Shown here piece by piece: positions 37,684-64,000 of a DNA stretch of 64,000 nt. The stretch's first letter is position 1, and the number at the start of each line of letters is the position of its first letter. This stretch comes from Bryocella elongata (GTDB taxonomy: Bacteria; Acidobacteriota; Terriglobia; Terriglobales; Acidobacteriaceae), in the NCBI RefSeq assembly GCF_900108185.1, contig NZ_FNVA01000006.1:1-64000 (forward strand). The letters are read 5' to 3'. The notes beneath the pieces were generated by a model. That model worked only from the letters and a program-made list of their open reading frames with translations. It did not search any database and was not told where the DNA came from. A program made the translations under genes and the position numbers.

Positions 37684-37693
37684 GCAGCGGACC

Positions 37694-39022: not shown

Positions 39023-39096
39023 GGCCGGCAGCCGCTGGAGTTCCGGGCATGGACTCCCAGGGAGCTTTAGTCTAGGTCGTGGCTGAAGGTCTGACG

Positions 39097-39963: not shown

Positions 39964-40154
39964 CAACGCTTGATGGCTCCGGATATTCGAAACGCATCCC
40001 CTCCTGGTAATACGCCTGAGACGTTACCGAATACCACCGAGGTTACTGACAAGTGATTGCACCGGGATGCGGAAGTTGTATTGAGAAGGCAGGCACCCCC
40101 TCCTAGTCTTTGCAAAGACATCGGGCGAACAGCGCCCCGAGTCAGGAGCGCACC
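39964..40154. other. Intergenic region upstream of the WecG-STAS gene
   Basis: 191 bp. Contains a GGTAA/TTACC interrupted repeat (about 40005-40027) and TTGTAT at 40076-40081 with TAGTCT about 20 bp on, a weak promoter candidate for the plus-strand EPS run. Confidence 0.35.
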
Positions 40155-41477: not shown

Positions 41478-41617
41478 ATTGCGTCTCCGCAGGGCCAAAG
41501 GTTGTATCTGGCGCCGACGGTACACTGACACTTACGGGGACTAGTCATACCCCATCCCTTTCTAAGAGCCTGAAACAGATCCTCCAGCCTCGTCTGGAGA
41601 AACCTGGAGACCGCTCT

Positions 41618-48047: not shown

Positions 48048-48605
48048 ATGAGCATCTTTCGCCAGATTCGCAGCGACTGGATCGCGCATCAGCGCGACTG
48101 GTCGCGGCATGGCTTCTGGGCTCTGATGGTCTATCGTTTCGGCAACTGGCGCTATGGCATCCGCCCGCGCGCCCTGCGCATGCCTTTCTCGTTCGCCTAT
48201 CGCGTGCTGCACTTCATCTCGATCAGCCTCTGTGGCATTGAACTGCCGTGCGAGGTGAAGCTGGGCGACCGCTTCGTCATCGAGCATGTCGGCGGCATCG
48301 TCATCAGCGGCGACGCCGTCTTTGGCGAAGACTGCGTGATTCGCAATGGTGTTACCGTAGGGCTTCGTCATCGCGGCCAGCGTGGCTCGCCATGCATCGG
48401 TGATCGCGTGGACATAGGCGCCGGAGCCAAACTGCTGGGGCCAATCCGGATTGGAAACGATGTGGCCATCGGCGCCAATGCAGTGGTGCTCTGTGACGTA
48501 CCGGATGGCTGCGTCGCCGTCGGAATTCCCGCTCGTATCCTTTCGCGTCGCAGCCATGACGTTCCAACTGTTGAAGCAGGCATGGAAGATCTGGTGCTGC
48601 GATGA
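48048..48605 (+). CDS. Serine-acetyltransferase-like left-handed beta-helix acyltransferase
   Basis: 185 aa. A helical N-terminus (FRQIRSDWIAHQRDWSRHGF) like that of EPS-associated SAT homologues is followed by hexapeptide repeats (VKLGDRFVIEHVGGIVISGDAVFGEDCVIRNGVTVG), then SPCIGDRVDIGAGAKLLGPIRIG and the conserved ending AVVLCDVPDGCVAVGIPARIL. It probably O-acetylates a sugar of the EPS repeat unit with acetyl-CoA rather than serine, given the locus. It starts 3 bp after the giant gene, and its stop overlaps the next start (ATGA). Confidence 0.82.
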   Translation: MSIFRQIRSDWIAHQRDWSRHGFWALMVYRFGNWRYGIRPRALRMPFSFAYRVLHFISISLCGIELPCEVKLGDRFVIEHVGGIVISGDAVFGEDCVIRNGVTVGLRHRGQRGSPCIGDRVDIGAGAKLLGPIRIGNDVAIGANAVVLCDVPDGCVAVGIPARILSRRSHDVPTVEAGMEDLVLR

Positions 48606-49627
48606 GTCTCACGACATCGAGCACGGTGGTAGCTGCGACGCTGAGTGTTGTGATCATCGGTCGCAACGAAGGTGCGCGTCTCGAGCGGTGCCTGGAGTCG
48701 ATCGCACGTATGGACCGCGAGGGCCTGCAGGTCGATGTGATCTACGTCGACTCCGACTCGAAGGACAACAGCGTAGAGCTCGCGCGACGGCACGGAGCCC
48801 GCGTCGTCGCGCTTCATCCCATCAGGCCGACGGCGGCGCTTGGCCGCAATGCAGGCTGGCACGAATCGCAGGCCGAGTTCGTGCTCTTTCTCGATGGCGA
48901 CACGATCCTCGACCCGCAGTTTGTGCAGAAAGCACTCCCTGAGTTTGCGCAGCCGCGCATCGCCTGTGTCTGGGGCCATCGGCGCGAGAGAAAGCCGCTG
49001 CGTTCCATCTACTCGCGCGTGCTGGATCTCGACTGGATCTATGCTCCGGGAATCGTTCCGTTCTGTGGCGGCGACGCAATCTTCCGTCGCAGCGTGCTCA
49101 TCACGGCCCGTGGGTATGACGAGACGCTGATCGCCGGCGAGGAGCCGGAACTCTGCCAGCGATTGCAGATCCTCGGTCACCGCATCCTGCACATCGATAC
49201 CCCAATGACGGAGCATGACCTGGCGATCGATCGCTTTGCGCAGTACTGGAAGCGCGCCGAACGAGCAGGTCATGCCTACGCCGAGGTCTCGACCCGGCTT
49301 GCAGGTACAAAGTTTCCCTTGTGGTCCGAGGAGTCGCGGAGGAACCGGCTCCACGCTCTCGTGCTGATCGCTGTGCCGGTGATCGCGATCAGTGGGAGTG
49401 TGCTTTTGCGATCCGCGTGGCCGTTGCTCACGCTTGCGTTGCTCCCCATGGTCTTCCTGCGCTCGGCGTGGAAGGCGAGATGGAAGAAGGCAGACCCGAT
49501 CACGCTGATGCTCTACGGTGTGCACTCGCACCTGCAGCAGATTCCAATTGCGGTCGGCCAGTGGCGGTATCGAGTCGGCCGGCGCAAGGGGCGGACCATG
49601 AAGCTGGTGGAATACAAGCGGTCCTAG
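48602..49627 (+). CDS. GT2 glycosyltransferase with C-terminal membrane helices
   Basis: 341 aa. GT-A domain: LSVVIIGRNEGARLERCLES, YVDSDSKDNSVELARRHGAR, GRNAGWHESQAEFVLFLDGDTILDP (DGD as DxD) and FCGGDAIFRRSVL, with the acceptor-side acid in GEEPELCQRL. Two hydrophobic segments near the C-terminus (LHALVLIAVPVIAISGSVLL, LLTLALLPMVFL) anchor it in the membrane. It overlaps the acetyltransferase gene by 4 bp and ends tail-to-tail with the next, minus-strand gene, overlapping it by 4 bp. Confidence 0.85.
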   Translation: MSLTTSSTVVAATLSVVIIGRNEGARLERCLESIARMDREGLQVDVIYVDSDSKDNSVELARRHGARVVALHPIRPTAALGRNAGWHESQAEFVLFLDGDTILDPQFVQKALPEFAQPRIACVWGHRRERKPLRSIYSRVLDLDWIYAPGIVPFCGGDAIFRRSVLITARGYDETLIAGEEPELCQRLQILGHRILHIDTPMTEHDLAIDRFAQYWKRAERAGHAYAEVSTRLAGTKFPLWSEESRRNRLHALVLIAVPVIAISGSVLLRSAWPLLTLALLPMVFLRSAWKARWKKADPITLMLYGVHSHLQQIPIAVGQWRYRVGRRKGRTMKLVEYKRS

Positions 49628-50226
49628 CGCGTCTGCAAGGGCTTCGCAGGAACTCCGCCAACGGTTTCTCCTGCAGCTACATCACGCGTGACGACAGCAT
49701 TCGCACCAACCGTCGCATGATCGCCCAAAGTCACTCCGCTGAGTACCGCTACACCACGGCCGATCCATACCTCTCGCCCGAGCACGATGGGTCTTGCGAC
49801 GTGGGGCGAGTCTCTCAGCGTGATTCCGGACTCGCGCGTGTGGTTTGCGTCGCGAAGGCTGGCGTATTCGCCAACCATGCAACCATCGCCAAGAACGATC
49901 CGGGAGCGAGCAACGATGTGCACTCCGCTCGACAAGACAACGCCCTTGCCAAGCACGATCTCTCCATCTCCTTCGGTCTCTAGATAGACCCCGGGATACA
50001 GGAGAGCGTCGCCGCCGAACCGTATGTTTCCGGTGCCGTAGACCTGGGTGGCGCCCATCACGACTACAGAAGCCGGCAGTGGATGGCGCAGTGCGGCAGC
50101 GAGCCTTGCATGCGAGATCAATCTCACTACAAGGACACGCGGAAGTTCGATTGTGCGGAGGAGCATTCGCAAGGGCGCGGTCAGCAGAGTCTTCAATGGA
50201 GATCCCGAGGATGTAGAAGCGAACAT
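49624..50226 (-). CDS. WcaF-like hexapeptide acyltransferase
   Basis: 200 aa. Left-handed beta-helix with many hexapeptide turns (TGNIRFGGDALLYPGVYLE, GEIVLGKGVVLSSGVHIVAR, IVLGDGCMVGEYASLRDANH), then the catalytic-loop-type DANHTRESG and the ending IGRGVAVLSGVTLGDHATVGANAVVTRDVAAGETVGGVPAK. This is the NodL/WcaF/maltose-acetyltransferase pattern; it most likely acetylates a glycan residue. It sits 4 bp after the preceding minus-strand GT2 gene. Confidence 0.82.
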   Translation of the reverse strand: MFASTSSGSPLKTLLTAPLRMLLRTIELPRVLVVRLISHARLAAALRHPLPASVVVMGATQVYGTGNIRFGGDALLYPGVYLETEGDGEIVLGKGVVLSSGVHIVARSRIVLGDGCMVGEYASLRDANHTRESGITLRDSPHVARPIVLGREVWIGRGVAVLSGVTLGDHATVGANAVVTRDVAAGETVGGVPAKPLQTR

Positions 50227-50230
50227 CGCG

Positions 50231-51301
50231 TCACCACGGCTGCGGCGGTGAGATACGGCCGCCGTTCGTATCGCGCCAGGCCTGGTTCATCAGCCGGATG
50301 AGTGCGCGGAAGTGGACTGCGCGGCGTTGCCGTTCCTCGCTGCGGCTCGCGAGGTTGCGAAGCCACGAAGCTGTGTAGAGCAGCTGCTCCATGCGCCTGG
50401 CAGCCCATGCGCGGGAGCCGTGATGCCTGCGGTAGTAGAGCAGCGAGCTGCGCATGCGCCACAGTACAACCTGTGCCGCGATGGAAGAGAACTCCAGTGT
50501 CTTGAGCTGGCGCGAGCTCTCGCCGCCGATATGCGTTACCACGATATCGGGCCAGTAGCAGACCTCGTACCCTGCGTTCTTGAGGCGGCGGCAGAGATCA
50601 ACCTCTTCGTAGTAAAGGAAAAATGCAGGATCGAAGTTGCCGACACGCTGTAAAGCTTCGGGCCGCAGAATGGCGAACGCGCCTGGGATCCAGTCGACGC
50701 TGGCTGGTTGCGTGAGGTCGCTCCAGGTGCGGTCGAGGCGGCCGAAGAAGCGCGAACGTGGATAACGATACGCGAGGCCGCTCAGCACGATAGCGTCGCC
50801 AAGCACGGTATGGAACATACGCGCCGAGGGTTGCGGCGAACCGTCTCGACTAATTAGGCGAGCACCTCCAGCTGCGCAACCTGGGTTCGCATCCATGTGC
50901 GCGATGGCGCGTTGAAGCGCGTCCTCATGCAGAAAGGCGTCTGAGTTCAGCAGCACAAGATATCGGCCACAAGCCTGTTCGAGAGCGAGATTGTTCGCCC
51001 GGCCAAAGCCGACATTCTCAGTGGTACGCAATAGGCGAACCTGAGGGAACGTTTCAGCGACCATCTCGGCAGAGCCATCGCGAGACGCGTTGTCCACGAC
51101 GAAGAGCTCAGAGCTGAAGGGCGCGGACAACTGCAGTGCGGACGTGATGCACTCCCGCAGGAGTTCGCGGGTATTGAAGCTCACGATGATGATGGAGAGC
51201 TCCGGTCGCACAGGTTCACGGGCATCGGGCTTCGGTCCGGCGTCGCCCAATGCCTTGAGCGTCGTGGCCTGCGACGTCTCCGCGATGACCGCCGGGCTCA
51301 C
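50231..51301 (-). CDS. GT2 glycosyltransferase, rhamnosyltransferase-like
   Basis: About 356 aa from GTG 51301, which has GAGGAG 8 nt upstream and overlaps the previous stop (GTGA). Typical GT2 sequence: LSIIIVSFNTRELLRECITS, FVVDNASRDGSAEMVAETFP, GFGRANNLALEQACGRYLVLLNSDAFL (NSD as DxD), DWIPGAFAILRPEAL and FDPAFFLYYEEVDLCRRLKN. This is the WbbL/rhamnosyltransferase-type subgroup of GT2, though donor assignment from sequence is unreliable. Confidence 0.85.
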   Translation of the reverse strand: MSPAVIAETSQATTLKALGDAGPKPDAREPVRPELSIIIVSFNTRELLRECITSALQLSAPFSSELFVVDNASRDGSAEMVAETFPQVRLLRTTENVGFGRANNLALEQACGRYLVLLNSDAFLHEDALQRAIAHMDANPGCAAGGARLISRDGSPQPSARMFHTVLGDAIVLSGLAYRYPRSRFFGRLDRTWSDLTQPASVDWIPGAFAILRPEALQRVGNFDPAFFLYYEEVDLCRRLKNAGYEVCYWPDIVVTHIGGESSRQLKTLEFSSIAAQVVLWRMRSSLLYYRRHHGSRAWAARRMEQLLYTASWLRNLASRSEERQRRAVHFRALIRLMNQAWRDTNGGRISPPQPW

Positions 51302-52575
51302 GATCGCATCTCCTCTCCGTTGAAGCACTGCGCAAGTCGCTCCTGGTTCAAAGGGAGGTTGTAATCATGCACGATGCGCCGACGAGCGGAGCGGCCGAGG
51401 AACTGCCGCAGGGTCGCGTCTCCTGCCAGCGTGGTCAGTGCATCGGTGAGCTCGCGGATGTTCGAAGGCGCAACGAGAATGCCATCGCGACCGGTGTGAA
51501 TGAGCTCCGGAATTCCTGCGATGGAGGTGCTGATGCATGGAATTCCCAGTGCCATGGCTTCCATCAGAGCGACTGGAATGCCTTCCGCGAAGCTGGCGAG
51601 GACGAAGATGTCGGCGTCGCGGACGCGTGCCAGCGTTTCGTCATGAGGTAGTGAGGAGGTGAAGAGAATCTTCTCGGTGAGTCCACGCTCGCGAACAAGT
51701 TCCGTCAGGCCGAGGCGCTCGGGGCCATCGCCGATGAGTGTCGCAGAGAATTCGATCCCGCGCTCTCGCAGCCCGTAGAGCGCCTCGATGAGGATGCGAT
51801 GTCCCTTGGCCGGAACGAGCCGCCCGGTGCAGACGATCTCGAGAGGCCGGTTATCGACGTTCTGAACAGCAAGCGAAGGAGTCAGCGCGGCGGGGTCCAC
51901 GCCGAGGCGAACCACATCCAGCTTGCCCCAATGTGCGGGAGGCAGCAGTTGCATCAGCTGGCTCCGGCAGAAGTCGCTGATGCAGATGATGTGGGTGGCC
52001 TGGGTGAGCTTTTCACTCAGATGCTCGGCTCCGGTGTTGAGAAGTTCCTCCGGGCCGTGGATCGTCAGCGAATAGGGAATGCGCCACGCGATGGAGGTGA
52101 GCATGCCCACCGCCGCCACCGGCCCGCCGAAGTGCACGTGGAGATGATTCAGCTTGCGGGAGCGCATCCATTGTCCCAGAAGCAGAGCCTCAGCCAGATA
52201 GAAAAGCCAGTAGCCTCGCTCGGTCAGCCTTAGTCGACGGATAGCGAAGACAGCGCGAAGACCGCGAAGCAGGGTGATAGGGTGCGCTGCAATCGCGCGT
52301 GCAAGGAGCACCAGAGCACCTAAGGTATTGCCATCCTTGAGGTAACGCGTGGCATTCGCCTCACGCAGTTCTTCGTCCGAGAGACGGCTTGAGGGTCGGT
52401 CCGGGAGATTGATCGATGCGGTCTCGATATGCAGGCCACGAGCACGAAGTCCCAGAACCTCTTTGAGGAGGAAGGTGTGGGAGACAGCCGGATAGCGGCT
52501 CAGCAGATAGGCGTAACGTGTCGTCGTCTTGCTGCGTGGGCTCGGCGCGGCCTTGCGGGGCGGGGCAAGCGGCAT
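51298..52575 (-). CDS. GT4 glycosyltransferase
   Basis: About 425 aa. GT-B fold: the N-terminal half has YLLSRYPAVSHTFLLKEVLGL, LNHLHVHFGGPVAAVGMLTS and YSLTIHGPEELL; the C-terminal half has VVRLGVDPAAL, IVCTGRLVPAKGHRILIEAL, LIGDGPERLGL and the nucleotide-sugar site FAEGIPVALMEAMALGIPCI (EGxP...E). This resembles colanic-acid/EPS GT4 enzymes (WcaL-like). ATG 52575 is preferred, since the conserved region starts soon after; ATG 52635 is possible. Stop and next start overlap (GTGA). Confidence 0.85.
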   Translation of the reverse strand: MPLAPPRKAAPSPRSKTTTRYAYLLSRYPAVSHTFLLKEVLGLRARGLHIETASINLPDRPSSRLSDEELREANATRYLKDGNTLGALVLLARAIAAHPITLLRGLRAVFAIRRLRLTERGYWLFYLAEALLLGQWMRSRKLNHLHVHFGGPVAAVGMLTSIAWRIPYSLTIHGPEELLNTGAEHLSEKLTQATHIICISDFCRSQLMQLLPPAHWGKLDVVRLGVDPAALTPSLAVQNVDNRPLEIVCTGRLVPAKGHRILIEALYGLRERGIEFSATLIGDGPERLGLTELVRERGLTEKILFTSSLPHDETLARVRDADIFVLASFAEGIPVALMEAMALGIPCISTSIAGIPELIHTGRDGILVAPSNIRELTDALTTLAGDATLRQFLGRSARRRIVHDYNLPLNQERLAQCFNGEEMRS

Positions 52576-52663
52576 GGTTTTGTGTTCTAGTGCCGGCACG
52601 TTATCAGCTTGCTCTCGCGATACCCCCAAAGCCATTCAACTTCGGGGCGTGGTGCTTCCACCA

Positions 52664-53881
52664 ATGGGCTACTGCGCTACCAGTTTTGACGAGGTAGGTT
52701 GGAATCGCCGCATTCCATCCCTACGGACCGATGCCTTGACGCTTGACGTAAAACCGAAGACCGAACTCCCCGCTACATCGAACAACTTCGATGCGTTGCG
52801 CCTGGGCCTCGCGGTGCTCGTCATCTACTCGCACAGCTACGCGCTGGGGTTGGGGTCCGAGGCCACAGAGCCGCTTTATCGACTTACGCGAGGACAGATG
52901 AGTCTGGGGGCGCTGGCCGTCGACCTCTTTTTTGTCCTGAGCGGCTACTTGATCACCGCGAGTGCCGAGAAGTCTTCGTCGGTGGGCTCCTATCTGAAGA
53001 AACGTGTCCGCCGCATCTACCCGGCGTTTATCGTGAATGCGATCCTCTCCGTGGTGATCGTAGTGCCGCTGGCTCATGCCGTGATCGCCTCACCCGCGTG
53101 GGGGAACTTCGCTCTGCAAACGTTGCGGCTTTGCGAGTTTGAATACTCGAGTGCCTTCAGTGCGAATCCATTTCCGGGGCCGATCAATGGCTCGCTGTGG
53201 TCCATCCAGTATGAGTTCTGGTGCTACCTGGGCGTCGCCGCTCTTGCTTCGTTCGGGCTCTTGCGCCGGAAGTGGCTCCTGCTTGCGAGCTTCGTCGCTT
53301 CGGTGGGAGTCAGTGTGTTGTGGCAGGTGAAAGGCATCGTGCTTGGCGGCAAATTTCTTGGTCAGCTGCTGGGGTCGCCACAGCTTTGGGCGCGAATGCT
53401 TCCGCTGTATCTCGCCGGCGTGGTCGCGTATCTCTTCCGTGACAGGATTCGCCTCAACGCCCGCGGCGCGGTGCTTGCGTTGATCGTGTTGATCGGCGCC
53501 AGCTTCGTATCCCTTGGCTGGACGCTTGTATTTCCTGCCGCGGGAACGTACCTGGCGCTGTATCTCGCCTTCGCTCCCTGGCTTCGCCTGCACGGGGCGG
53601 CCAGACTCGGAGACTTCTCCTACGGAACGTACCTCTACGCCTTTCCGATCGCACAGATCATCATGAGCCGTTTCGGACACGAAGTGCCACCGTGGCAGCT
53701 CTTCGTACTCGCGACGCCGTTGACTCTGTTGGCCGCGATTGCAAGCTGGTACGGGGTCGAGCGTTGGTTCGTTCCTCGCGCGCGGCGCAATGAGGCCGTG
53801 CGGTCGTCGGCTGGGGCTCAGGCTGTTGCGGTGACACGCTCTTCCGCGCGTGCGGTGCTTGAGGCAAGAGCCGACTCGTAA
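52664..53881 (+). CDS. Acyltransferase-3 (OafA/YrhL-like) membrane protein
   Basis: About 405 aa from ATG 52664; no Shine-Dalgarno decides the start. Ten or so membrane helices. Acyltransferase-3 signatures: NNFDALRLGLAVLVIYSHSYAL (R and the catalytic His), LGALAVDLFFVLSGYLITAS, RRIYPAFIVNAILS and SLWSIQYEFWCYLGVAAL. The family O-acylates extracytoplasmic glycans, including O-antigens and EPS. The last 64 bp overlap the end of the converging GT4 gene on the other strand. Confidence 0.85.
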   Translation: MGYCATSFDEVGWNRRIPSLRTDALTLDVKPKTELPATSNNFDALRLGLAVLVIYSHSYALGLGSEATEPLYRLTRGQMSLGALAVDLFFVLSGYLITASAEKSSSVGSYLKKRVRRIYPAFIVNAILSVVIVVPLAHAVIASPAWGNFALQTLRLCEFEYSSAFSANPFPGPINGSLWSIQYEFWCYLGVAALASFGLLRRKWLLLASFVASVGVSVLWQVKGIVLGGKFLGQLLGSPQLWARMLPLYLAGVVAYLFRDRIRLNARGAVLALIVLIGASFVSLGWTLVFPAAGTYLALYLAFAPWLRLHGAARLGDFSYGTYLYAFPIAQIIMSRFGHEVPPWQLFVLATPLTLLAAIASWYGVERWFVPRARRNEAVRSSAGAQAVAVTRSSARAVLEARADS

Positions 53882-55092
53882 ACCTTCAACATCGTGTCGA
53901 CTTTGCTCTCCCAGTTGAAGTGCTCTTCGACCCGGGCGCGTCCAGCAGCCCCCATTCGCTCACCCAGCGCTGGCTGCTCGACGAGCAGTTGCATAGCATC
54001 ACGAAAGCCATCGATCATCGCTTCGCGGCTCGAGGGCGAGACCAGGAAACCACAGCTTGCGTCGAGATAGTCGAGCGGACCGCCCCAAGCCGTTGCGATG
54101 ACGGGCTGCGCGCATGCCATCGCCTCGAGCACAACCGCCCCTCCACATTCGTACAGACTGGGCAGAAGGAGGCCGCGTGATTCCTGCAGGATCTGCGCGC
54201 AATCGCTCTGTGGCAACCACCCCAGGAAGCGAACGCGCTCCCCAAGGCCAAGGGTCTGCGCGAGGGCGCACCATGCGGCACGCATCGGACCGTCGCCGAT
54301 GACATCGAGCTCAACGTTATCGACCTGGCAGATCGCCTCGAGTGCAATGTCGAGCGCCTTCCAGTCTACGAGCCGTCCCATGAAGACAAAGCGCGCGGCC
54401 GCTGAGTGAGGCTCGATGGCTTGATGGACAGCAGGCACACCCCACTGCGCGAGATCGACTCCGTTCTCGGGTAGCAGGATCACTCGCGCATCGGAAGCAT
54501 CAGTCAATGCGAGCCGGGTTCGGTCATTGGCCACTAGTAGAGCCTGGGCTCTACGCTTACCTGGAATAAGCCTCTGCACGAGATCGCTCACAGCTCTGCC
54601 CAGGTCGATCACGGCGCGGCCCGGCAGCGACTCTCTTCCGCGAAACGCCGATGGATACTCCATGCCACCGTTCATTGGGCCGATGATCACGGGCGCCCCC
54701 ACGTCGTAGATCATGGAAGGGAACCGCGGCGCAACGGGAATTGGCTGATGAACGATGGTATTGGCATCGGTCAACGTACGCAGCAGGCCTCTCTGTGCGG
54801 CCTGCGTCAGCATCTGGTTCGCAAGTCCGACGGTGGCTTCCGCGACACGATGCGGAAGCCATCGCGAGCACCAGTGAAATAGCTTCTGCAGCGGGCGATC
54901 CGCGATGAAGTGCAAGCGATCCTGCTGTTCCGGAAAGAGCGATTCGAGCTCTTCCCGGCAGCGTTCGTGCACGATGAGCTGCACATCGATGCCGCGCTTC
55001 AGAAGGACGCGCAGATAGTGGTAGGGAAGAATGGCCTCGCCGCCCCATCGTGTGGAGGTGTTCTCCGCGACGAGGAGCACCCGTATCGCCAC
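53818..55092 (-). CDS. GT4 glycosyltransferase, last gene of the PKS-NRPS operon
   Basis: About 424 aa from GTG 55092, one base after the preceding stop. GT-B features: VLLVAENTSTRWGGEAILPY, IIGPMNGGMEYPSAFRGRES, RFVFMGRLVDWKALDIALEA, VIGDGPMRAAW, RVRFLGWLPQSD and the donor-site LYECGGAVVLEAMACAQPVI. No membrane helix or signal. Its position directly behind the NRPS and GT8-like genes suggests it could glycosylate the peptide/polyketide product, but it could equally belong to the EPS set. It overlaps the acyltransferase gene tail-to-tail by 64 bp. Confidence 0.85.
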   Translation of the reverse strand: MAIRVLLVAENTSTRWGGEAILPYHYLRVLLKRGIDVQLIVHERCREELESLFPEQQDRLHFIADRPLQKLFHWCSRWLPHRVAEATVGLANQMLTQAAQRGLLRTLTDANTIVHQPIPVAPRFPSMIYDVGAPVIIGPMNGGMEYPSAFRGRESLPGRAVIDLGRAVSDLVQRLIPGKRRAQALLVANDRTRLALTDASDARVILLPENGVDLAQWGVPAVHQAIEPHSAAARFVFMGRLVDWKALDIALEAICQVDNVELDVIGDGPMRAAWCALAQTLGLGERVRFLGWLPQSDCAQILQESRGLLLPSLYECGGAVVLEAMACAQPVIATAWGGPLDYLDASCGFLVSPSSREAMIDGFRDAMQLLVEQPALGERMGAAGRARVEEHFNWESKVDTMLKVYESALASSTARAEERVTATA

Positions 55093-55093
55093 G

Positions 55094-56095
55094 TCAGGCC
55101 CGCCCCGCGTGAAAGAGTCGATAGTAGCCAAGTCCCGCAAGCATACGCTTGGCGGTTTGCTCGGCTTCATAACGCTCACGCGAGAGCTCAACGAAGGGCA
55201 GTCTGTTTCCGTCGCCGAGGCACATAGCGCCCTGTTTGACGATGCCCAGTTCTTCCGCAGTCACAACCCAGGACTTGGCTTCTCCACCCGCGTGGAAACA
55301 CTTGATGGTGCTCCAGGGCTCAGTGCGCAAGAGCGTCGCGCCCTGCACTCCGAGCTTGCGAGCTACGCGCTTGAGCTGCGTGCGATGCCAGCACAGCCAG
55401 TGTGCGGGATCGAGGTAAGAACCGCCGAGCTTCATCGCGATTGCAGACCACACGATGGCTTCGACGTGCATCATGCGTGGCAGCTGGGCGCCTCCCAGGC
55501 GTCCCAGCACCCAGTCGAGCCATTCAAGGGTGCCGTCGTCGCCGGGAGCACTCCACTGCGCGACTCCGATGTCTACATGTCGAGCGAGGCGGATGCTGTT
55601 GTCGAGCGCGCGGCGAACGACCTCCTGCGGCAACAGGCAATTCGGCTGTTGCCACATAAGCCGTAGCTCGGTCGCAGGTGTCTGCTCGAAGCGAAAGCGG
55701 TTTGGGAAGAACGTGTCAGGATCGAGGACGACGATCTCCTCTCCCGGTGCGCTCATCAGCAGGGGATCGGTAATCTTTCGCCAGCAACCATGGCCCGCTC
55801 GGAAGGCGCGAAGATTGGACCAGCGGCCAAACTGCGAAGCTTCGGCATCCGCGAGGCCGGCTTCGCTGGTGATGCTATAAGCTGCAGCCTGTGGCAACAG
55901 ATCCGCAAGGGCATCGGCAAGTCTGGATTTGTCCTCTGCGCTATCGGTGATGAGATTCAGCGCAATGGGCTCGTCCGCGTGCCGCAGCAGGCTCGCGATG
56001 CCGCTCCTGGCGTAGGAGAGGGAACGCGGTGAAAGCAGAAGGAACACGCGCCGCGGTTGCTTGATCGGCAGGGGTGCGGGAGTGGGAAGACTCAT
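55094..56095 (-). CDS. GT8-like/unassigned glycosyltransferase-type protein
   Basis: 333 aa. The only strong catalytic-type motif is VVLDPDTFFPNRFRF, a DxD-containing segment as in GT-A enzymes, after RVFLLLSPRSLSYARSGIAS and the nucleotide-fold-like PIALNLITDSAEDKSRL. Later parts (MMHVEAIVWSAIAMKLGG, IKCFHAGG) fit a small-molecule glycosyltransferase of the GT8 kind, but I cannot place it firmly in a family. The start overlaps the upstream NRPS stop (ATGA), and the next gene starts 1 bp after its stop, so all are translated together. It is soluble, with no signal peptide. Confidence 0.6.
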   Translation of the reverse strand: MSLPTPAPLPIKQPRRVFLLLSPRSLSYARSGIASLLRHADEPIALNLITDSAEDKSRLADALADLLPQAAAYSITSEAGLADAEASQFGRWSNLRAFRAGHGCWRKITDPLLMSAPGEEIVVLDPDTFFPNRFRFEQTPATELRLMWQQPNCLLPQEVVRRALDNSIRLARHVDIGVAQWSAPGDDGTLEWLDWVLGRLGGAQLPRMMHVEAIVWSAIAMKLGGSYLDPAHWLCWHRTQLKRVARKLGVQGATLLRTEPWSTIKCFHAGGEAKSWVVTAEELGIVKQGAMCLGDGNRLPFVELSRERYEAEQTAKRMLAGLGYYRLFHAGRA

Positions 56096-58635
56096 CGCAA
56101 GGCCTCATTCAGATAGGCTGCGAGGGCATCGATGCCGGGTTCAAGGAAGAGGCGTTCGTGGTTGCCGTCCACTTCGCGTATCTCGATTCCGCCGCGGATG
56201 ACGTCCTTCCAGCCGAGCTCGAGCGCAGCATTGGGGAAGTCCTGGTCTCGCGCCCGGAAGAGCATGAGAGCACCCTCATAGGGTTTGGGCACATACCGGT
56301 TGATCGCGACGAGGTTGATCTCGTTCGCGTCTTTGAACCAAGCAGGCAGAGTGCGGAACCCCAGCGTGGCCGCTGCTGCCGCTGCGTAACGGATCGCGCG
56401 CGTATGCAACTTGCTGGCGATGTAACTGCGGCGCGCTTCGACGCTGAGCGTCTCAGTGTTTCCGCGCAGACGATCGACGCGCTGATGCGCCTTCTCCTGC
56501 GTTGAGAAGCCGCTACGCTGTTCTTCATCGAACTTGCGCGTGCGCGAGTCGAGCATCCCGAGCATCGCGACCTGCTGCCCCGCAGCGCGCAGCTGCCGCG
56601 CCATCTCCAGCGCCAATGTCCCCCCGAAGGAGTAGCCAAGCAGATGATAAGGGCCAGAGGGTTGCAGCGCTCGCATCTCTGCGATGTAGAACTGTGCGAG
56701 GTCCTGCATCCTCAACAGGGCGGGCTTTCCTGGAAGCAATGCTTGTGCCTGAATTCCGTACACAGGCCGGTCCACGCCAATGCGACGCGCGAGGCCATAG
56801 AAGCTGATGACGTTTCCACCGACGCCGTGCACGATGAACAGCGGCTCGCGAGTACCCTCGGGCTTGAGCGCGACCAGCGAGGACTCGCTGCGTGCGGACA
56901 CCCGCCGGCGAATGAGGCCGGCAACGGCAGCGATGGTCGGCGCGCCCACAAGCCCGGCAAGGCCGATCTCCATCGAGAAAGTGCGGTTCATGCGGGTGAC
57001 CAGGCGCAGAGCAGCGAGTGACCCCGCGCCGAGCGAAAAGAAGCTTGACTCCACACCGATGCGCTCAATGCCAAGCGTCGTCTGCCAGATCTCCGCGAGT
57101 TGCCGTTCCAGAACATCGCGCGGCGCAATGTAGCGCTGATGATCGACTGTCGATTCCTGCATCGCGATACGTTGCACGGCCGGTGCGTGGGTCGAACTTC
57201 CGCGGCCAACAACCGCGCGGGCTTCGTCGCTCACGACGGGGAGTTGGTCTACTGCCGTCGTGGGATCTTCCAGGCCTGACTGCATGAGCTCGACAAAGAG
57301 TCGAAGATAACCGCGCACGGTATCCATGCGATGCAGCTGTGGGTTGAACTCCAGCTGTAGCCTAGGGCCTTCCTCCTCGCGGTCGACCACGGCAAACATC
57401 ATGTCGAAGACGGCGCCGGGGCTTTCGGACCGCAGTGGGGTGATGTGGATGCTTCCCTCTGCCGTAGCAATGCGGCGCGCGACCATGAACGACTTCTGAT
57501 ACAGAAAGAAGATCGGGATCTCGAGCGAATTGTCGCCGCGGAAGTAGGGATCATGTACCAGGTCTTCAAAGGGCAGCGCCTGATGCTCCACCGCGGCGAG
57601 TGTCCACGTATTTACCGCGTCGAGCAGCTCGCGGAAGCTCATGTCCTCACGCACGAAGGCACGCAGGACCTGGATATTCATAAAAAGCCCGATGAGCTCC
57701 TCAGTCTCTTCGCTTCGATTGGCGCAGGGAGATCCAATTGTGAGGTCACGACGCCCGGTCGCCCGCGAGAGCATCGCGGAGAAGACCGTGAAGAGCAACA
57801 CGTTGAATGTGACGCCTTCTCTGGCGCAGTAGGCTAACGCCCGCTGTGTGAGGTCGGAGGGTAACAGCAGCGTCTGGATATCGCCCGTGGCGTTCTTCTT
57901 GTGTTCGGGCAGGTGCTCGGGCGCATCCGCATCGGTCGGGAGCGCGATGGGGGCGGCGTCGCGGCCCAATGTGTTGCGCCAGAAGTCGAGTGAGCGCTCG
58001 TGCTCCTCGCTGTTGCACCAGTCTTCATGCCAGACGGCATAGTCAGCAAATTGGATGGGAAGCTCGGGAAGTTGCGGCGCGACGCCACGCACCCCAGCCT
58101 CGTAGAACTCGAGCATGTCGCGCATCAGTATGCCGTTAGAGATGCCGTCGCAGATGATGTGGTGCATCGTGACGAGCAGCAGATGATGCGATTCGTTCAA
58201 TCGGATCAGGCGAAGCGCGAGTAGCGGACCGCGCGCGAGATCGAAGCGGAAGGCTGCATGGTCGCGTGTGATGCGGTCGCTGGACTGGCGTCGTTCCTCT
58301 CCCAGGCAACCGCTGACGTCATCAAGCAGAATCGGGACAGGCATGTGCGGATGGATCAACTGCATCAGCTGTCCATCCCGCAGCAGGAAGGTGGTGCGTA
58401 GCGATTCGTGGCGCTCGACGCAGGCGGCGAATGCCCGCGTGAGGACAGCAACATCCAGTGCGCCATCGCACTGCCACATCAAAGGCATGTTCAGCGCAGG
58501 GTTGCCGGAATTCAATTGATCCAGCGACCAAAAGCGGACTTGTCCCCGCGTCGCAGGCATGGCGTACAAATCCGCGGAGGCAGCAACCTGCGCCGTCTGG
58601 AGTTCATTCACGAGTTCGTCGAGTTCCAGTGCCAC
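56092..58635 (-). CDS. NRPS termination protein: condensation-PCP-thioesterase, no adenylation domain
   Basis: 847 aa. Condensation domain at about residues 25-460 (MPATRGQVRFWSLDQL, the active-site HHIICDG starting at H158, SHLLLVTMHH-type context and FEDLVHDPYF). Carrier domain with the attachment Ser539 in SFFSLGAGSLAALRL (GAGSL where GGDSL/GGHSL is usual). Type-I thioesterase from about 590 (PLFIVHGVGGNVISFYGLAR) with nucleophile Ser669 in GYSFGGTLALEMA and His826 in DGNHERLF. There is no adenylation domain between C and PCP, so the last carrier must be loaded by another protein, or the domain only passes the chain to the thioesterase. The gene starts 6 bp after the hybrid PKS-NRPS stop and overlaps the GT8-like gene by 4 bp. 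Confidence 0.88.
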   Translation of the reverse strand: MALELDELVNELQTAQVAASADLYAMPATRGQVRFWSLDQLNSGNPALNMPLMWQCDGALDVAVLTRAFAACVERHESLRTTFLLRDGQLMQLIHPHMPVPILLDDVSGCLGEERRQSSDRITRDHAAFRFDLARGPLLALRLIRLNESHHLLLVTMHHIICDGISNGILMRDMLEFYEAGVRGVAPQLPELPIQFADYAVWHEDWCNSEEHERSLDFWRNTLGRDAAPIALPTDADAPEHLPEHKKNATGDIQTLLLPSDLTQRALAYCAREGVTFNVLLFTVFSAMLSRATGRRDLTIGSPCANRSEETEELIGLFMNIQVLRAFVREDMSFRELLDAVNTWTLAAVEHQALPFEDLVHDPYFRGDNSLEIPIFFLYQKSFMVARRIATAEGSIHITPLRSESPGAVFDMMFAVVDREEEGPRLQLEFNPQLHRMDTVRGYLRLFVELMQSGLEDPTTAVDQLPVVSDEARAVVGRGSSTHAPAVQRIAMQESTVDHQRYIAPRDVLERQLAEIWQTTLGIERIGVESSFFSLGAGSLAALRLVTRMNRTFSMEIGLAGLVGAPTIAAVAGLIRRRVSARSESSLVALKPEGTREPLFIVHGVGGNVISFYGLARRIGVDRPVYGIQAQALLPGKPALLRMQDLAQFYIAEMRALQPSGPYHLLGYSFGGTLALEMARQLRAAGQQVAMLGMLDSRTRKFDEEQRSGFSTQEKAHQRVDRLRGNTETLSVEARRSYIASKLHTRAIRYAAAAAATLGFRTLPAWFKDANEINLVAINRYVPKPYEGALMLFRARDQDFPNAALELGWKDVIRGGIEIREVDGNHERLFLEPGIDALAAYLNEALR

Positions 58636-58641
58636 TTGTCC

Positions 58642-61600
58642 CTACCTGGTTACCTTGAACCGCTCGCGCGGCACGGCTGAGATCCGCGCCGGCCCACGAG
58701 GCTTTGCTTCTAACTCCGCCTTTGGCAATGCATGGCATACCGCAGCTACGGTTCGATGCTCAAAGATCTGTGAGGCTTTAACGAGAAGACCTTCGCGCTG
58801 CGCGCGCGCTGCGATGCGGAAGATCGCCAGCGAGTCAGCTCCCATCTCAAAGATGCTCTCCTCCACGCTGACGGCCTTGAGCTTCAGGACATCAGCCCAA
58901 ATGGCAGCGAGTTGAGTCTGCTCAGCCGTGGAAGGTGGAACAAAGTCACGCTTGGGTGCCTGCCCCGCAGTGCCGTCGACCATCCTCAGCAGGGCCTTGC
59001 GATCGACCTTGGTGTTCGGCAGGCGGGGGAACTCGGGTAACACCAACACGGTTGGAGGCACCATATACGATGGCAGCTCGCGTTCTGCTGTGCGTCGCAC
59101 TCTCTCACTCAGCTGCGGATCCACATGCTGCTGTCCGGCATCGAGGAACGCAACCAGTCGCGTGCTGTCGGTCCCAGGTTCCGTGCGGGCGAGGACAATC
59201 GCCTCGCGGACTGCATCATCTGTAGCGAGCACAGCTTCGATCTCTCCAAGTTCGATGCGGTATCCGCGAATCTTTACCTGGAAATCTGTTCGACCGAGCA
59301 GTTCTATGGCTCCATCGGCATGCCGTCGTGCAAGGTCGCCGGTGCGATAGATCCGCGCATTGACCGACGGTGCGATCACAAAACGCTCAGCCGTTAACTC
59401 CTCCCGATGCCAGTAGCCCACCGCGAGCCCATCGCCACCGATGCAAAGCTCCCCGGTGACGCCAATCGGGCATAAGCGAAGTTGATCGTCGAGGACGTGG
59501 AATTGCGTGTTTGCAATGGGGGTGCCGAGGCGCAGAGGGCCATCACCGGCTGCGACGCGGGTCGCGGAAGACCAGATGGTGGTCTCGGTCGGACCGTAAA
59601 CGTTCCATACACTCGCAGACCTTGCAATCAGCTGGTTCGCGAGGTCGCGCGGCAGAGCTTCGCCTCCGCAAAGAGCCTTCAGCGGGGTCGCTGTATCCCA
59701 TCCGGCATCGATCAGGATGCGCCACAGCCCAGGGGTAGCCTGCAGCACGGTTGCGTCGCTGCGTTTCGCGAGATCCAGCAACAGGCCGCCGTTGCTCACC
59801 TGCTCATCGGTTGCAATGACAAGCTTCGCCCCCGTCAGCATGGGGAGGAACATCTCGAGTGCTGCGATGTCGAAGGCCAGCGTCGTGACGCCGATGAGCA
59901 CGTCATCGCTGGAGAGCCCGGGCTCGCGCTGCATCGAGTGCAGCAGATTCATCAAGGCGCCATGCGGGATCGCAACACCCTTGGGCTTTCCGGTCGACCC
60001 TGATGTGTAGATAACGTACGCGACGTCGCTGGACTTGATAGCCGCCGGGAGTGGATCGCTGACGCGAGGCTGGGGCCCGGTGATGTTGAGCATCTTCGCA
60101 TTCGAAATGATGCTTGGATCGCGTCCGGTGAGGAGAAGCTTGAGGCCTGCATCGTCCACGATTCCACGCAGGCGATCCTGGGGATGCTTCGGGTCGAGCG
60201 GCACGTAGGCTCCGCCTGCCTTCATGACAGCCAGGAGCGCCCCAGCCATTTCGACGGAGCGTTCAATGCAGATGCCGACGAGTTCGCCTGGCTTCAGGCC
60301 TTCGTGTACGAGACGATGGGCGAGCAGAGTCGCATACTCATCGAGCTCCACGTAGGTCCACTTGCGGCCATTGCATTCGAGCGCCACCTTCGTTGCAGTG
60401 AGAGCCGCATGCCTGGTGACGATGGACGGCAGATCTGTGAATCGCCCAAAGTCGACGGCGGTCTGGTTCCACGTATTGCGCAGATACGACTGCTCGCTTT
60501 CCGTCAGTATCGCTAACTCAGCTGCGGTCGCGTCAGGCTGCTGCATCATGCTTTCGAGCAGCTGCTCCCAGTGGCCCATCCACCGCTCGATGGTCGATTC
60601 AAGAAAGAGCGTGTTGTTGTAATCACAAGCGAAGTGCAGCCCGTCAGATTGTTCAATGACGTTGAGAAACAAATCGCTGTTCACGAACTGCTTCGGCTGG
60701 CTGTTGATCTCAGCAGTGAGCCCGTCAAAGTTTGCGGCGTCCCCAACACGTTCGAGATTGAACTGTACTTCGATCAGCGGCAGTCGTCCCGGTTCGCGCT
60801 CCAGCTTGAGTCGGCGCAACAGGCTGCCGTAGGTGAACTCCTGGTGCTCCTGTGCATCGAGCAGCACCGTCCGAGCCGCCTTCATGTGCGAGAGCACGCT
60901 TTCCGCGGGCTCGAGCTCGCTGAGCAGCGGCAGATAGTTGACGCAGTGTCCGACAAGACTTTCGCCCTCGAGCAGAGCCTGGGCGGCCGTCGATATTCCC
61001 ACGACCAGCTCCTGCTGGCCGCTGAGTCGATGCAGCAGCAGCTCGAAGCCCGCGAGCAGCGTTACATATAGGCTGCAGCCATTTCGGGCACTGAACTTCT
61101 TGAGCCGGGCATAGCGGTCCGCATCAATGTGTCCGTTGTATGTCGCGCCGGAGTAAGTCTTCACCAGGGGGCGGACGCGATCGGTGGGCAGATCGAGTCG
61201 AGGTGAACGACCTTCGAACTTGTTCACCCAATAACGTTCGTTCGCTTCAAACTCGCCACGGGCTTCCCGTTCACGCTGGGCCGCGGCATACCGGCTGAAT
61301 GATAACAACGGAGCGAGTGCGCGAAGGCCTCCCGAGCCATTTGTGTATACAGCGGCGATCTCCTCAAGCAGCAGATTGGCAGACCAGCCATCCAGCACGA
61401 TATGGTGCCCTGTAAGTACAAGGGCTACGCTCTGAGCGCTGAGCCTGAACGCCATGATGCGGAGTAGCGGGCCCGAGTGAAGATCAAACGGGCTGCGTGA
61501 ATCTTCCTCGCTATACGCACGAAGAGCCTGCTCCTGGGCATCGCGCCCCAGTGCCGTGAGGTCAGACCAATCGACTGGACCCTCATAGGCTGGCGCGATG

Positions 61601-64000
61601 CAGAGGGACTCTCCATCCTGACTCACCACGCTACGCAGAGCGTCATGGCGGGCGATCACGGCATCGATCGCGAAGCGAAGGTCTGCTTCGCGAAGCGGGC
61701 CGTGCAGTCGGACCATCACCGACTCATTGAACGCGCAGTTGGCTTCCTGCCCCAGGGCAGCCGCAAGAAAGATCTCGCGCTGGGGCTCGGTGAGTGCTAC
61801 GTGCGACGGGGAAAATTCGGTCGCGGAGTCACCTTGGTCAGCCGCAGATAGTGACGAGGATTCCTTTGACGGAAGGACGCCGTGACTCTGCATCTCAAGG
61901 ATGGTCTCGCGGAAGGCCAGCTCTACTGCAGCGAGATCAGCGTCGGTGTGCGCGGAGGTGAGGAAGCATGGATAGCCTTCCTGGATGTGGATACCGCGGG
62001 CCCGCATCGCGTAGTAGAACAGCGTGCCTAGCGGAGTCTCGCCGGGGAATGTGAAGTAGAACCACGAGGCGAAGTGGTCGATGTGCAGAGGGACGCCGCG
62101 CTCCATGAGGAAGGCTCCGAGCGACTCCGAGATGGCCTTCGTCTTTGCGTTGAGTGTCTCCTGCAAAGATGGACCCTTCTGCTTAAGGTGCTGAAGCACG
62201 CTCTTAGCCGCAGCCATCGCCAACGGATGGCGCACAAATGTTCCGGCAAAAAAGGTGACGCCGACCTCCGGGATGGAGTCGTCGCCATAGTTCCACGAGC
62301 CGCCGTCGAGAGCGTCAAGATATTGCGCTTTGCCGGAGAGCACACCAATCGGATGTCCGCCGCCGATCACCTTGCCGTAGGTGCACATGTCGGCGCGGAT
62401 GCCGAGATACTCCTGTACGCCACCGGGCGCAACGCGGAAGCCGGTGACAACCTCATCGAGGATCATCGCGGCGCCATGCTGTTCGGTGACGCGGCGGACC
62501 TCGCGGATGAAGTCGAAGGGCTTGTTCTCGGGATGCCGCGTCTGCACGGGCTCGATGAGCACTGCTGCGATGTCATCTGCGTTGTTGCGGATGTACTCAA
62601 GTGCTTCGGGCGTGCCGTAGTCGAGCACGGTGATGTTCTTCACGTTGTCGAAGGGAATGCCGGGCGCGATGGGAGCGCTGCCACGCGGTGTCTTGCGGAT
62701 CAGCACCTCATCGAAGGTGCCGTGGTAGTCGCCGGAGAAGTACACCACGCGGTCGCGACCGGTAACGGTGCGAGCGACTCGGATTGCAGCCATCACGGCT
62801 TCGCTACCCGTATTGCAGAACGTCACACGTTCATTGCCGGTGAGGTCGCAGATGAGCTTCGCGACCTCTCCCGCGAGTGCGGACTGCGGCCCAATCGCGA
62901 CTCCGCGATCAAGCTGCTTCTTGGCTGCCTCAACGACAAACTCCGGCGAGTGACCAAACATGATGCAGCCATAGCCATTGACGATATCGATGTACTCGTT
63001 GCCGTCGATGTCCCACAAGCGTGAGCCCAGCGCACGGTCCGTGACCAGCGGATACACCATCTCCTTCCACTGCGGACGGAAGCCTGAAACCGCTCGGGGG
63101 TCAGCGAGGCGCAGACGATCCGCTGCAGTGCGCCGCTTTGACCCTGGCGTCTTCGCGGTGTAACGCGCAATCAGTGAATCGATGTAGTTGCGCTGCTGGG
63201 GAGTGATCTCCTGCGAGGCCCGTTGTGGCGGCCGGAACGAGCCATGCTTCGTATCCAGCGCGGTGGAAGCCTGCGTGGCGGGAGCCGACGTCTTCAACGG
63301 AGCGATTGGAGCGGGAGTGCCAACAGCGTTGGAAGGAAGCGAAGGGGAAACTCCGCCTGACTGGACAGCCGCCTGCAGGGCTGCCACTTGCTGGGCGAAC
63401 ATGGCAGAGAGAGCTACAACCTGGCTGGTAAAGAGCTGTTCGATCGCGGAGCCCGCAGCCTCCGGAGTAGGCACCGTGATCGCAGAGGTCGGCGCCGGAG
63501 CCGCAGGAACAGGCGAAGCTGCTACGATTTCGGGAGCCATCTGCTCATCGAGATGCTTCGCAATAGCAGCGATCGTCGAGAGTTGTTCCATGACTTGGCG
63601 CAGCGTGATCTTGACCTTGAAGCGTCGGCTGACTGCTAGCGTGGCCTGCGTAAGGAACAGGGAGTCGAGGCCAAGCTCGAGGAATGTGAGGTCATACTCC
63701 GCCGGTGCGATGTCCACCCCGCTGAGTTCAGTGAAGAGTGAAGCTGCTTCCTGCTGCAGCCGCTCAAAGCGAGCAGGGGCCAACTGCGGTTGCTGCGCGT
63801 CGCGTATTGCTGGCGTGGCATTAATCGAACTCATAGCTGGTGATGGTCCCTCGGACATAGGCGGCGCGGATGCCAGCTCGTTGATGCGAACCTGCGGCGC
63901 GGGCGGATCGACCCAATACAGCTTGCGTTGAAATGGATACGCAGGAAGTGAAACGCGACGGCGTGTCTCGGCCGCGTAGTAGCGATGGGGATCGACGGAG
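58642..64000 (-). CDS. Hybrid PKS-NRPS megasynthase (partial): AT end-ACP-aminotransferase-C-A-PCP
   Basis: The frame is open to the right edge. The first visible residues include RRRVSLPAYPFQRKLYWVD, the linker that follows a type-I PKS acyltransferase domain, so the gene starts outside the window; the ATG at 63858 is internal. Numbering from that Met: ACP with Ser66 in FLELGLDSLFLTQ; Pro/Ala-rich linker ~110-240; class-III PLP aminotransferase ~260-690 (WDIDGNEYIDIVNGYG, ILDEVVTGFRVAPGG, Lys496 in TYGKVIGGGHPIGV); condensation domain with HHIVLDG from H818; adenylation domain ~1190-1650 (YVIYTSGSTGKPKG at 1281, NVYGPTETTIWSS, YRTGDLARR, LPNTKVDRKAL); PCP with Ser1676 in FEMGADSLAIFR. The order ACP-AMT-C-A-PCP is that of microcystin McyE and iturin/mycosubtilin MycA, which make beta-amino acyl chains. 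Hand alignment of the A domain gives the specificity code DILQCGVIWK, nearest to glycine codes I know. Confidence 0.92.
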   Translation of the reverse strand, partial: SVDPHRYYAAETRRRVSLPAYPFQRKLYWVDPPAPQVRINELASAPPMSEGPSPAMSSINATPAIRDAQQPQLAPARFERLQQEAASLFTELSGVDIAPAEYDLTFLELGLDSLFLTQATLAVSRRFKVKITLRQVMEQLSTIAAIAKHLDEQMAPEIVAASPVPAAPAPTSAITVPTPEAAGSAIEQLFTSQVVALSAMFAQQVAALQAAVQSGGVSPSLPSNAVGTPAPIAPLKTSAPATQASTALDTKHGSFRPPQRASQEITPQQRNYIDSLIARYTAKTPGSKRRTAADRLRLADPRAVSGFRPQWKEMVYPLVTDRALGSRLWDIDGNEYIDIVNGYGCIMFGHSPEFVVEAAKKQLDRGVAIGPQSALAGEVAKLICDLTGNERVTFCNTGSEAVMAAIRVARTVTGRDRVVYFSGDYHGTFDEVLIRKTPRGSAPIAPGIPFDNVKNITVLDYGTPEALEYIRNNADDIAAVLIEPVQTRHPENKPFDFIREVRRVTEQHGAAMILDEVVTGFRVAPGGVQEYLGIRADMCTYGKVIGGGHPIGVLSGKAQYLDALDGGSWNYGDDSIPEVGVTFFAGTFVRHPLAMAAAKSVLQHLKQKGPSLQETLNAKTKAISESLGAFLMERGVPLHIDHFASWFYFTFPGETPLGTLFYYAMRARGIHIQEGYPCFLTSAHTDADLAAVELAFRETILEMQSHGVLPSKESSSLSAADQGDSATEFSPSHVALTEPQREIFLAAALGQEANCAFNESVMVRLHGPLREADLRFAIDAVIARHDALRSVVSQDGESLCIAPAYEGPVDWSDLTALGRDAQEQALRAYSEEDSRSPFDLHSGPLLRIMAFRLSAQSVALVLTGHHIVLDGWSANLLLEEIAAVYTNGSGGLRALAPLLSFSRYAAAQREREARGEFEANERYWVNKFEGRSPRLDLPTDRVRPLVKTYSGATYNGHIDADRYARLKKFSARNGCSLYVTLLAGFELLLHRLSGQQELVVGISTAAQALLEGESLVGHCVNYLPLLSELEPAESVLSHMKAARTVLLDAQEHQEFTYGSLLRRLKLEREPGRLPLIEVQFNLERVGDAANFDGLTAEINSQPKQFVNSDLFLNVIEQSDGLHFACDYNNTLFLESTIERWMGHWEQLLESMMQQPDATAAELAILTESEQSYLRNTWNQTAVDFGRFTDLPSIVTRHAALTATKVALECNGRKWTYVELDEYATLLAHRLVHEGLKPGELVGICIERSVEMAGALLAVMKAGGAYVPLDPKHPQDRLRGIVDDAGLKLLLTGRDPSIISNAKMLNITGPQPRVSDPLPAAIKSSDVAYVIYTSGSTGKPKGVAIPHGALMNLLHSMQREPGLSSDDVLIGVTTLAFDIAALEMFLPMLTGAKLVIATDEQVSNGGLLLDLAKRSDATVLQATPGLWRILIDAGWDTATPLKALCGGEALPRDLANQLIARSASVWNVYGPTETTIWSSATRVAAGDGPLRLGTPIANTQFHVLDDQLRLCPIGVTGELCIGGDGLAVGYWHREELTAERFVIAPSVNARIYRTGDLARRHADGAIELLGRTDFQVKIRGYRIELGEIEAVLATDDAVREAIVLARTEPGTDSTRLVAFLDAGQQHVDPQLSERVRRTAERELPSYMVPPTVLVLPEFPRLPNTKVDRKALLRMVDGTAGQAPKRDFVPPSTAEQTQLAAIWADVLKLKAVSVEESIFEMGADSLAIFRIAARAQREGLLVKASQIFEHRTVAAVCHALPKAELEAKPRGPARISAVPRERFKVTR

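Follow-up and report, generated by a model that had tools for sequence, protein, structure and literature searches.

Gene content of the locus

The window analyzed here, a stretch of 64,000 nucleotides from Bryocella elongata, ends on its right side with four consecutive minus-strand genes, read from the sequence as a hybrid PKS-NRPS, a C-PCP-TE protein, a GT8-like protein and a GT4 glycosyltransferase. The close spacing that an earlier note had ascribed to these genes is borne out by their coordinates: the stop of the hybrid gene (58642) and the GTG start of the C-PCP-TE gene (58635) are 6 bp apart, the C-PCP-TE and GT8-like genes overlap by 4 bp (56092-56095), and a single base pair separates the stop of the GT8-like gene at 55094 from the GTG start of the GT4 gene at 55092. 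The longest open reading frame of the GT4 gene opens at a TTG at 55191, and the 1-bp gap requires the internal GTG.

The hybrid gene is truncated by the window, which contains the C-terminal part of the synthase with AMT-C-A-PCP (58642..64000, minus strand), characterized by Pfam domains, catalytic motifs and specificity codes. The full gene reaches C10:66552 and encodes 2636 aa with the Pfam order KS-AT-ACP-AMT-C-A-PCP, which includes the ACP-AMT-C-A-PCP order reported earlier. The note had recommended reading rightward past the window for the KS and a loading module; this reading yields the KS-AT and then a stand-alone A-PCP gene with a threonine code (C10:66549-68531, minus strand; Pfam and specificity code), which lies upstream of the hybrid gene, overlaps it by 4 bp and passes the NCBIfam amino-acid-adenylation cut-off. 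Its best start is the ATG at 68531, preceded by AAGGAG and located 79 bp past the gene for a Wzx flippase (C10:68611-70050, minus strand, Pfam). The four-gene boundary was thus wrong, and two upstream genes, Wzx and the stand-alone A-PCP, have to be added. A PAF-AH-like hydrolase follows at C10:70336-71526 (minus strand, Pfam), and an Flp/Tad pilus operon starts just upstream of the locus (C10:73925-79860, plus strand).

From end to end, the assembly line reads A(Thr)-PCP / KS-AT(malonyl)-ACP-AMT-C-A(Gly)-PCP / C-PCP-TE. All catalytic motifs sought were found, namely the KS Cys-His-His residues, the AT motifs GHSVG and HAFHS (malonyl type), the carrier serines, the AMT lysine, two HHxxxDG motifs and the TE motif GYSFG. 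Pfam places a class III aminotransferase domain (Aminotran_3) between the ACP and C domains of the hybrid; its PLP lysine lies in a TYGK motif and is invariant across a 15-row alignment. Against the solved aminotransferase of mycosubtilin synthase A (6kfm), the AMT region reaches 454 bits, and against the best-scoring glutamate-semialdehyde aminomutase 195 bits; the former score bears out the beta-amination that had been proposed. A scan of locus L004 gave no promoter-like sites (2.7 expected in shuffles) and 6 terminator-like sites (9.8 expected). The window genome also contains a second NRPS locus (G000:C7:144644-148941) with a PPTase about 3 kb away.

The assembly line is part of an exopolysaccharide (EPS) locus that spans approximately 35.4 kb to 70 kb and contains GT2s, Wzy_C, a PPTase, WecG, Wza, a Wzc-like protein, acyltransferases, GT4, the GT8-like protein, the line itself and Wzx. 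Its edge is marked by a GT2 glycosyltransferase (35384..36301), followed by a further GT2 (36490..37893) and a polymerase or ligase of the Wzy_C/O-antigen-ligase family (37694..39163), all on the minus strand and assigned by Pfam. On the plus strand lie the 4'-phosphopantetheinyl transferase (PPTase; 39079..39963, PF01648 with 61 bits against a cut-off of 25, domain at 39535-39756), a WecG/TagA-family glycosyltransferase (40110..41477, Pfam), a Wza-type export protein (41474..42676, PF02563 and SLBB, Pfam) and a Wzc-like polysaccharide co-polymerase of 1771 aa (42729..48044), the last recognized by BLAST to the Wzc-like proteins of genomes G117 and G140. Pfam gave no match for this protein in the window and a weak AAA/BcsQ match for its G117 homologue. 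Its Wzc-like part comprises residues 17-666 and is followed by a tail of some 1100 residues with a high content of Ala, Pro, Ser and Glu; eight homologues are 719-787 aa long, and those of G383 and G339 have 1211 and 1324 aa, respectively.

The remaining genes were identified by Pfam and by colinear homologues, and comprise a second hexapeptide-repeat protein (48048..48605, plus), a GT2 glycosyltransferase (48602..49627, plus), a hexapeptide-repeat acyltransferase (49624..50226, minus), another GT2 (50231..51328, minus), a second GT4 (51298..52635, minus; its best NCBIfam match, EpsE, is below the cut-off), a membrane acyltransferase of the PF01757 kind (52529..53881, plus; matched colinearly in G383 and G140, unmatched in G339) and the first GT4 (53818..55092, minus), which is additionally supported by its junction. 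The GT8-like protein (55094..56095, minus, 333 aa) obtained no family from Pfam, NCBIfam or a PDB sequence search; it was assigned as a glycosyltransferase of the GT-A fold from an AlphaFold2 model, Foldseek and colinear homologues. The model has a mean pLDDT of 93.7 and resembles the GT-A enzymes xyloside xylosyltransferase, LARGE1, glycogenin and LgtC at TM-scores of about 0.4-0.5, so the name GT8-like holds. A precomputed Pfam domain was attached to 0 of the 120 matches listed for this protein.

Wzx, a Wzy_C-type protein, Wza, a Wzc-like protein and glycosyltransferases are therefore all present, with Wzc recognized by homology only and a Wzy_C protein that could be a ligase. The PF02397 initiating sugar-phosphate transferase has four copies in the genome and none on contig C10. 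No enzyme that would join peptide to sugar was identified.

Specificity codes and the predicted product

The stand-alone A-PCP carries the code DFWNIGMVHK and the hybrid A domain the code DILQLGVIWK. PMC12283262 groups DFWNIGMVHK with the threonine codes, noting that it selects N-methylated Thr too, and gives DILQLGMIWK as glycine-activating. The hybrid code differs from this glycine code by one residue. A threonine code is found in 10 of the 13 acidobacterial loci that have a separate A-PCP gene; the other three (G143, G114 and G087) carry different codes, which are presumably valine-like.

Codes and domain order together lead to a predicted backbone of 3,4-diamino-5-hydroxyhexanoyl-Gly(-Gly). 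The Thr-code A-PCP would supply threonine as the starter, the KS-AT would add C2 by one malonate extension, the AMT downstream of the ACP would convert the beta-keto group to a beta-amine, the C-A-PCP with its glycine-like code would add glycine, and the C-PCP-TE would end the line, perhaps after a second glycine. The PPTase encoded within the EPS locus is the candidate for priming the carriers. Extension by one A-domain residue and release by the thioesterase, both suggested previously, are supported by this layout. The diamino acid predicted from an amino-acid starter combined with an AMT is an unusual one.

The earlier note had envisaged a glyco-lipopeptide with a fatty-acyl starter, as AMT hybrids such as MycA indeed use fatty-acyl starters. 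At this locus, the gene directly before the KS is the A-PCP with the Thr code, and Pfam scans of the six genes of the line region found neither an acyl ligase nor a starter-C domain. The line starts from an amino acid, hence the "lipo" part of that proposal is unsupported; a lipid starter was rejected, and we consider a glyco-lipopeptide extremely improbable.

The terminal module is an 847-aa C-PCP-TE protein without an A domain (56092..58635, minus strand, Pfam). The same C-PCP-TE architecture is found in G236, G294 and G498, whereas the terminal module of G140, G383 and G339 is C-A-PCP-TE with a glycine code in its A domain. In the AMT tree, the window genome is separated from the G236/G294/G498 group by G383 and G339 (supports 99, 82 and 100), which implies two losses of the A domain if the tree of the AMT is also that of the whole line. 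The terminal A domain has decayed in the G117 group, where none of seven sequences has an intact code and the one sequence scanned gives a split, weak Pfam match; its place is taken by a second C domain in G034, G041, G143, G114, G332 and G487. The set of loci thus forms an evolutionary series in which the terminal A domain was lost, decayed or replaced and the C, PCP and TE domains were kept. Since the terminal A domain is missing here and kept with a glycine code in three relatives, A2 may load the A-less PCP in trans; the alternative explanation is that the terminal C-PCP-TE would only release the product.

Two further variations were noticed in relatives. The G140 hybrid synthase (G140:C1:753654-760517) shows no AT domain by Pfam and may therefore need an AT in trans, and G102 has a separate A-PCP-TE-like gene (G102:C8:68924-72316) about 11 kb from the line.

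Colinearity in related genomes

The 14-gene run from Wzx to Wza is matched colinearly in full in G383 and G140 and, apart from the acyltransferase, in G339 (13 genes), at 36-73% identity. G140 belongs to the same genus as the window genome, and G383 and G339 to another genus. Conservation of this order in other genomes makes a chance arrangement very unlikely. In G117, the hybrid gene begins 13 bp past the Wzc-like gene. The close packing of the line with glycosyltransferases and the EPS locus beside it, both noted earlier, are likewise supported.

This conserved order also bears on the possibility that the line makes a secreted glycopeptide, with the GT8-like and GT4 enzymes glycosylating the released peptide rather than building EPS. 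Both genes are tightly packed behind the TE gene and hold the same position in G140, G383 and G339, as such a role would suggest. However, the run goes on beyond them with GT4b-GT2c-Hexapep-Wzc-Wza, EPS loci without the line also contain GT2c and GT4b relatives, and a search with the GT8-like protein scored 982 homologues, of which one lies close to EPS genes in G072 that have no line beside them. The earlier idea that the two enzymes serve the peptide alone does not find support, as both run on into a complete EPS locus, and we judge a secreted glycopeptide to be improbable.

A PPTase lies in the line or at most 20 kb away in 12 of 17 loci; the exceptions are G047, where the distance is 28 kb, and G143 together with the short-contig loci G041, G087 and G016, where the PPTase sits on a different contig. 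The PAF-AH-like hydrolase recurs no more than 20 kb from the line in 9 of 17 loci (G114 among the recurrent cases) and adjoins the line in G236, G294, G498 and G332; it may act on the product of the line.

Distribution of the line and its linkage to Wza

Searches with the ACP-AMT query found the line in 17 of 150 genomes of the family, representing 13 of 79 genera, and in 27 of 396 genomes of the phylum at E 1e-80, three of which are partial, weaker matches. We refer to a locus as linked when no more than about 22 kb separates Wza from an assembly-line gene. Four of the 17 loci in the family sample (G041, G142, G087 and G016) are on short contigs and were left unscored; among the other 13, linkage was found in 11, the exceptions being G143, with Wza about 25 kb away, and the unlinked G047. 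Twelve further loci in genus g35 include three that are linked (G332, G339 and G383) and nine with Wza more than 45 kb away. Nine loci come from other acidobacterial families, three of them (G184, G218 and G310) near contig ends and unscored; none of the six scorable ones is linked, and all six fall outside the linked AMT clade described below.

Under a simple chance model, 1.4 linked loci would be expected among 23 compared with 12 observed, two more linked loci (G099 and G114) having been left out for short contigs. As a control, we scored other NRPS clusters of the same genomes, and 1 of 9 scorable clusters (G143:C16) was within 22 kb of Wza; this control omits weak matches, one fragment and G245:C19 (a 16 kb contig), and G245:C33 was read on one side. 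The subtype of Wza found at this locus occurs in 21 of 150 genomes and the AMT line in 17, with both present in 12 (Fisher P 7.7e-9), a P value that, like that of the chance test, overstates independence and is too small because the genomes are related. Chance neighbourhood is rejected by the colinearity and the distance test together.

Each partner is also found without the other. Nine of the 21 genomes with the Wza subtype lack the line, and five genomes with the line lack the Wza subtype; an obligate EPS-peptide unit is consequently rejected. In seven of the nine line-less genomes (all but G020 and G081), searches of the EPS stretches at E 1e-6 gave neither a PPTase nor an A, C, KS or carrier domain; these used reference proteins only, and some loci were cut by contig ends. 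G064 and G116, from the same genus as the window genome, have neither the line nor this Wza subtype (best matches 28-30% identity). In G236, G294 and G498, the line is accompanied by a PPTase and a PAF-AH-like hydrolase, and no recognized EPS genes were found in the 9-17 kb read on each side.

Linkage beyond the Acidobacteria

A wider scan of genome contigs gave at least 80 loci. Thirteen named records, their contigs assigned by length, were tested for Wza, and two of these (L088 and L092) are on short stretches. Linkage was found in six records, namely an Acidobacteria MAG (L078), Rhizobium terricola (L080), R. lusitanum (L081), Rhizobiales AFS084704 (L084), Novosphingobium rosa (L085) and a Boseaceae bacterium (L095); the five unlinked records are L083, L086 (Caballeronia), L087, L096 and L102. 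The Boseaceae line shares the Thr code and also has a Gly code; it comes with a C-TE protein lacking an A domain and with a PPTase, and WecG-like and weak Wzc-like matches occur nearby. Beside the line of R. lusitanum there are a polysaccharide pyruvyl transferase, a GH16 enzyme, a GINT1-type protein and a DegT-family aminotransferase.

In an AMT tree of 67 rows, 25 of them unscored, the 20 linked rows fall without exception into a single 41-row clade (support 99) that spans Acidobacteria and Proteobacteria. Twenty of the 32 scored rows in this clade are linked, compared with 0 of 10 scored rows outside. The 12 unlinked rows consist of G143 (the case with Wza at about 25 kb), G487, L086, L102 and a derived group of eight g35 genomes to which G236, G294 and G498 belong. 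The linkage label requires 6 changes on the tree versus 14.2 in shuffles, with 0 of 500 shuffles as low, a figure that is helped by near-copies.

Relationship between the line and the polysaccharide

Our preferred reading is that these genes form the peptide-polyketide arm of one Wzx/Wzy/Wza-type EPS locus and that the peptide is most likely joined to the polysaccharide or exported with it, a reading to which we give an about even chance. A short cationic peptide would be made for the polysaccharide repeat unit built by the neighbouring glycosyltransferases, and it would be joined to, or exported with, the repeat unit handled by Wzx/Wzy/Wzc/Wza.

The serious rival to this reading is a free small metabolite, such as an antibiotic, a metal chelator, a protease inhibitor or a signal, for which the position in an EPS locus would reflect co-regulation or a shared exporter and in which the glycosyltransferases would take no part. 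The three g35 genomes with the line and no recognized EPS genes point in this direction, as do the ordinary TE at the end of the line and the 9 of 21 genomes that have this EPS type without the line. On the other hand, the linkage in 20 of 32 scored clade rows across two phyla and the colinearity of 13-14 genes in three relatives argue against it, and among the genes scanned with Pfam around the line no efflux-pump family was found other than Wzx. A free metabolite sharing regulation or export is, in our view, quite possible though on balance not probable.

The best account is that one type of EPS locus acquired an accessory peptide-polyketide line, which several lineages then retained. Functional coupling to the polysaccharide would be the simplest reason for this retention, and covalent decoration its boldest form; covalent attachment of the peptide is possible. 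It is rather doubtful that the loci of Acidobacteria and Proteobacteria represent a whole class of nonribosomal substituents, in which a beta,gamma-diamino peptide would be joined to the repeat unit of a Wzy-type EPS.

Peptide-polyketide assembly lines are usually investigated separately from surface polysaccharides, and a recurrent locus that contains both, with a PPTase among the sugar genes, brings them together. It provides a concrete test case for the placement of nonribosomal peptides on bacterial exopolysaccharide.

Comparison with known systems

Soil Acidobacteria are reportedly rich in such clusters, according to one study. AMT hybrids were already known, including in Acidobacteria, and the amination by the AMT draws on glutamine, as stated in the available part of PMC3870968. 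Their pairing with an EPS locus is what appears to be new, as no description of it was found among the matches listed in the open literature searched. For EPS of Granulicella, the accessible portion of PMC5259719 reports no or negligible protein in two preparations from strains that may not carry the locus, and neither of the words "amino acid" and "peptide" turned up there.

The synthase MycA of Bacillus has the same ACP-AMT-C-A-PCP order, and its AMT is the closest solved structure by sequence (6kfm). MycA uses a fatty-acid starter and its product is a long cyclic lipopeptide, whereas the line described here starts with a Thr-code A-PCP, adds two or three residues only and lies in an EPS locus. 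McyE and NdaC, of microcystin and nodularin synthesis, resemble it by description only, in that a PKS module with an AMT precedes C-A-PCP; McyE has a methyltransferase domain and is part of a long cyanobacterial line. The flavipulchrin (Pfl) cluster of Pseudoalteromonas is similar in its chemistry, with malonyl extension, AMT action at C-3 and then glycine, the same three steps as predicted here, according to the part of PMC12819058 available; it differs in its fatty-acyl starter introduced by a Cs domain and in its heptapeptide ring, and that part of the text mentions no polysaccharide genes. With Wzx/Wzy-dependent EPS loci, the locus shares Wzx, Wzy_C, Wza, a Wzc-like protein, WecG, several glycosyltransferases and acyltransferases; unlike them, it has no PF02397 on its contig and contains an assembly line together with a PPTase.
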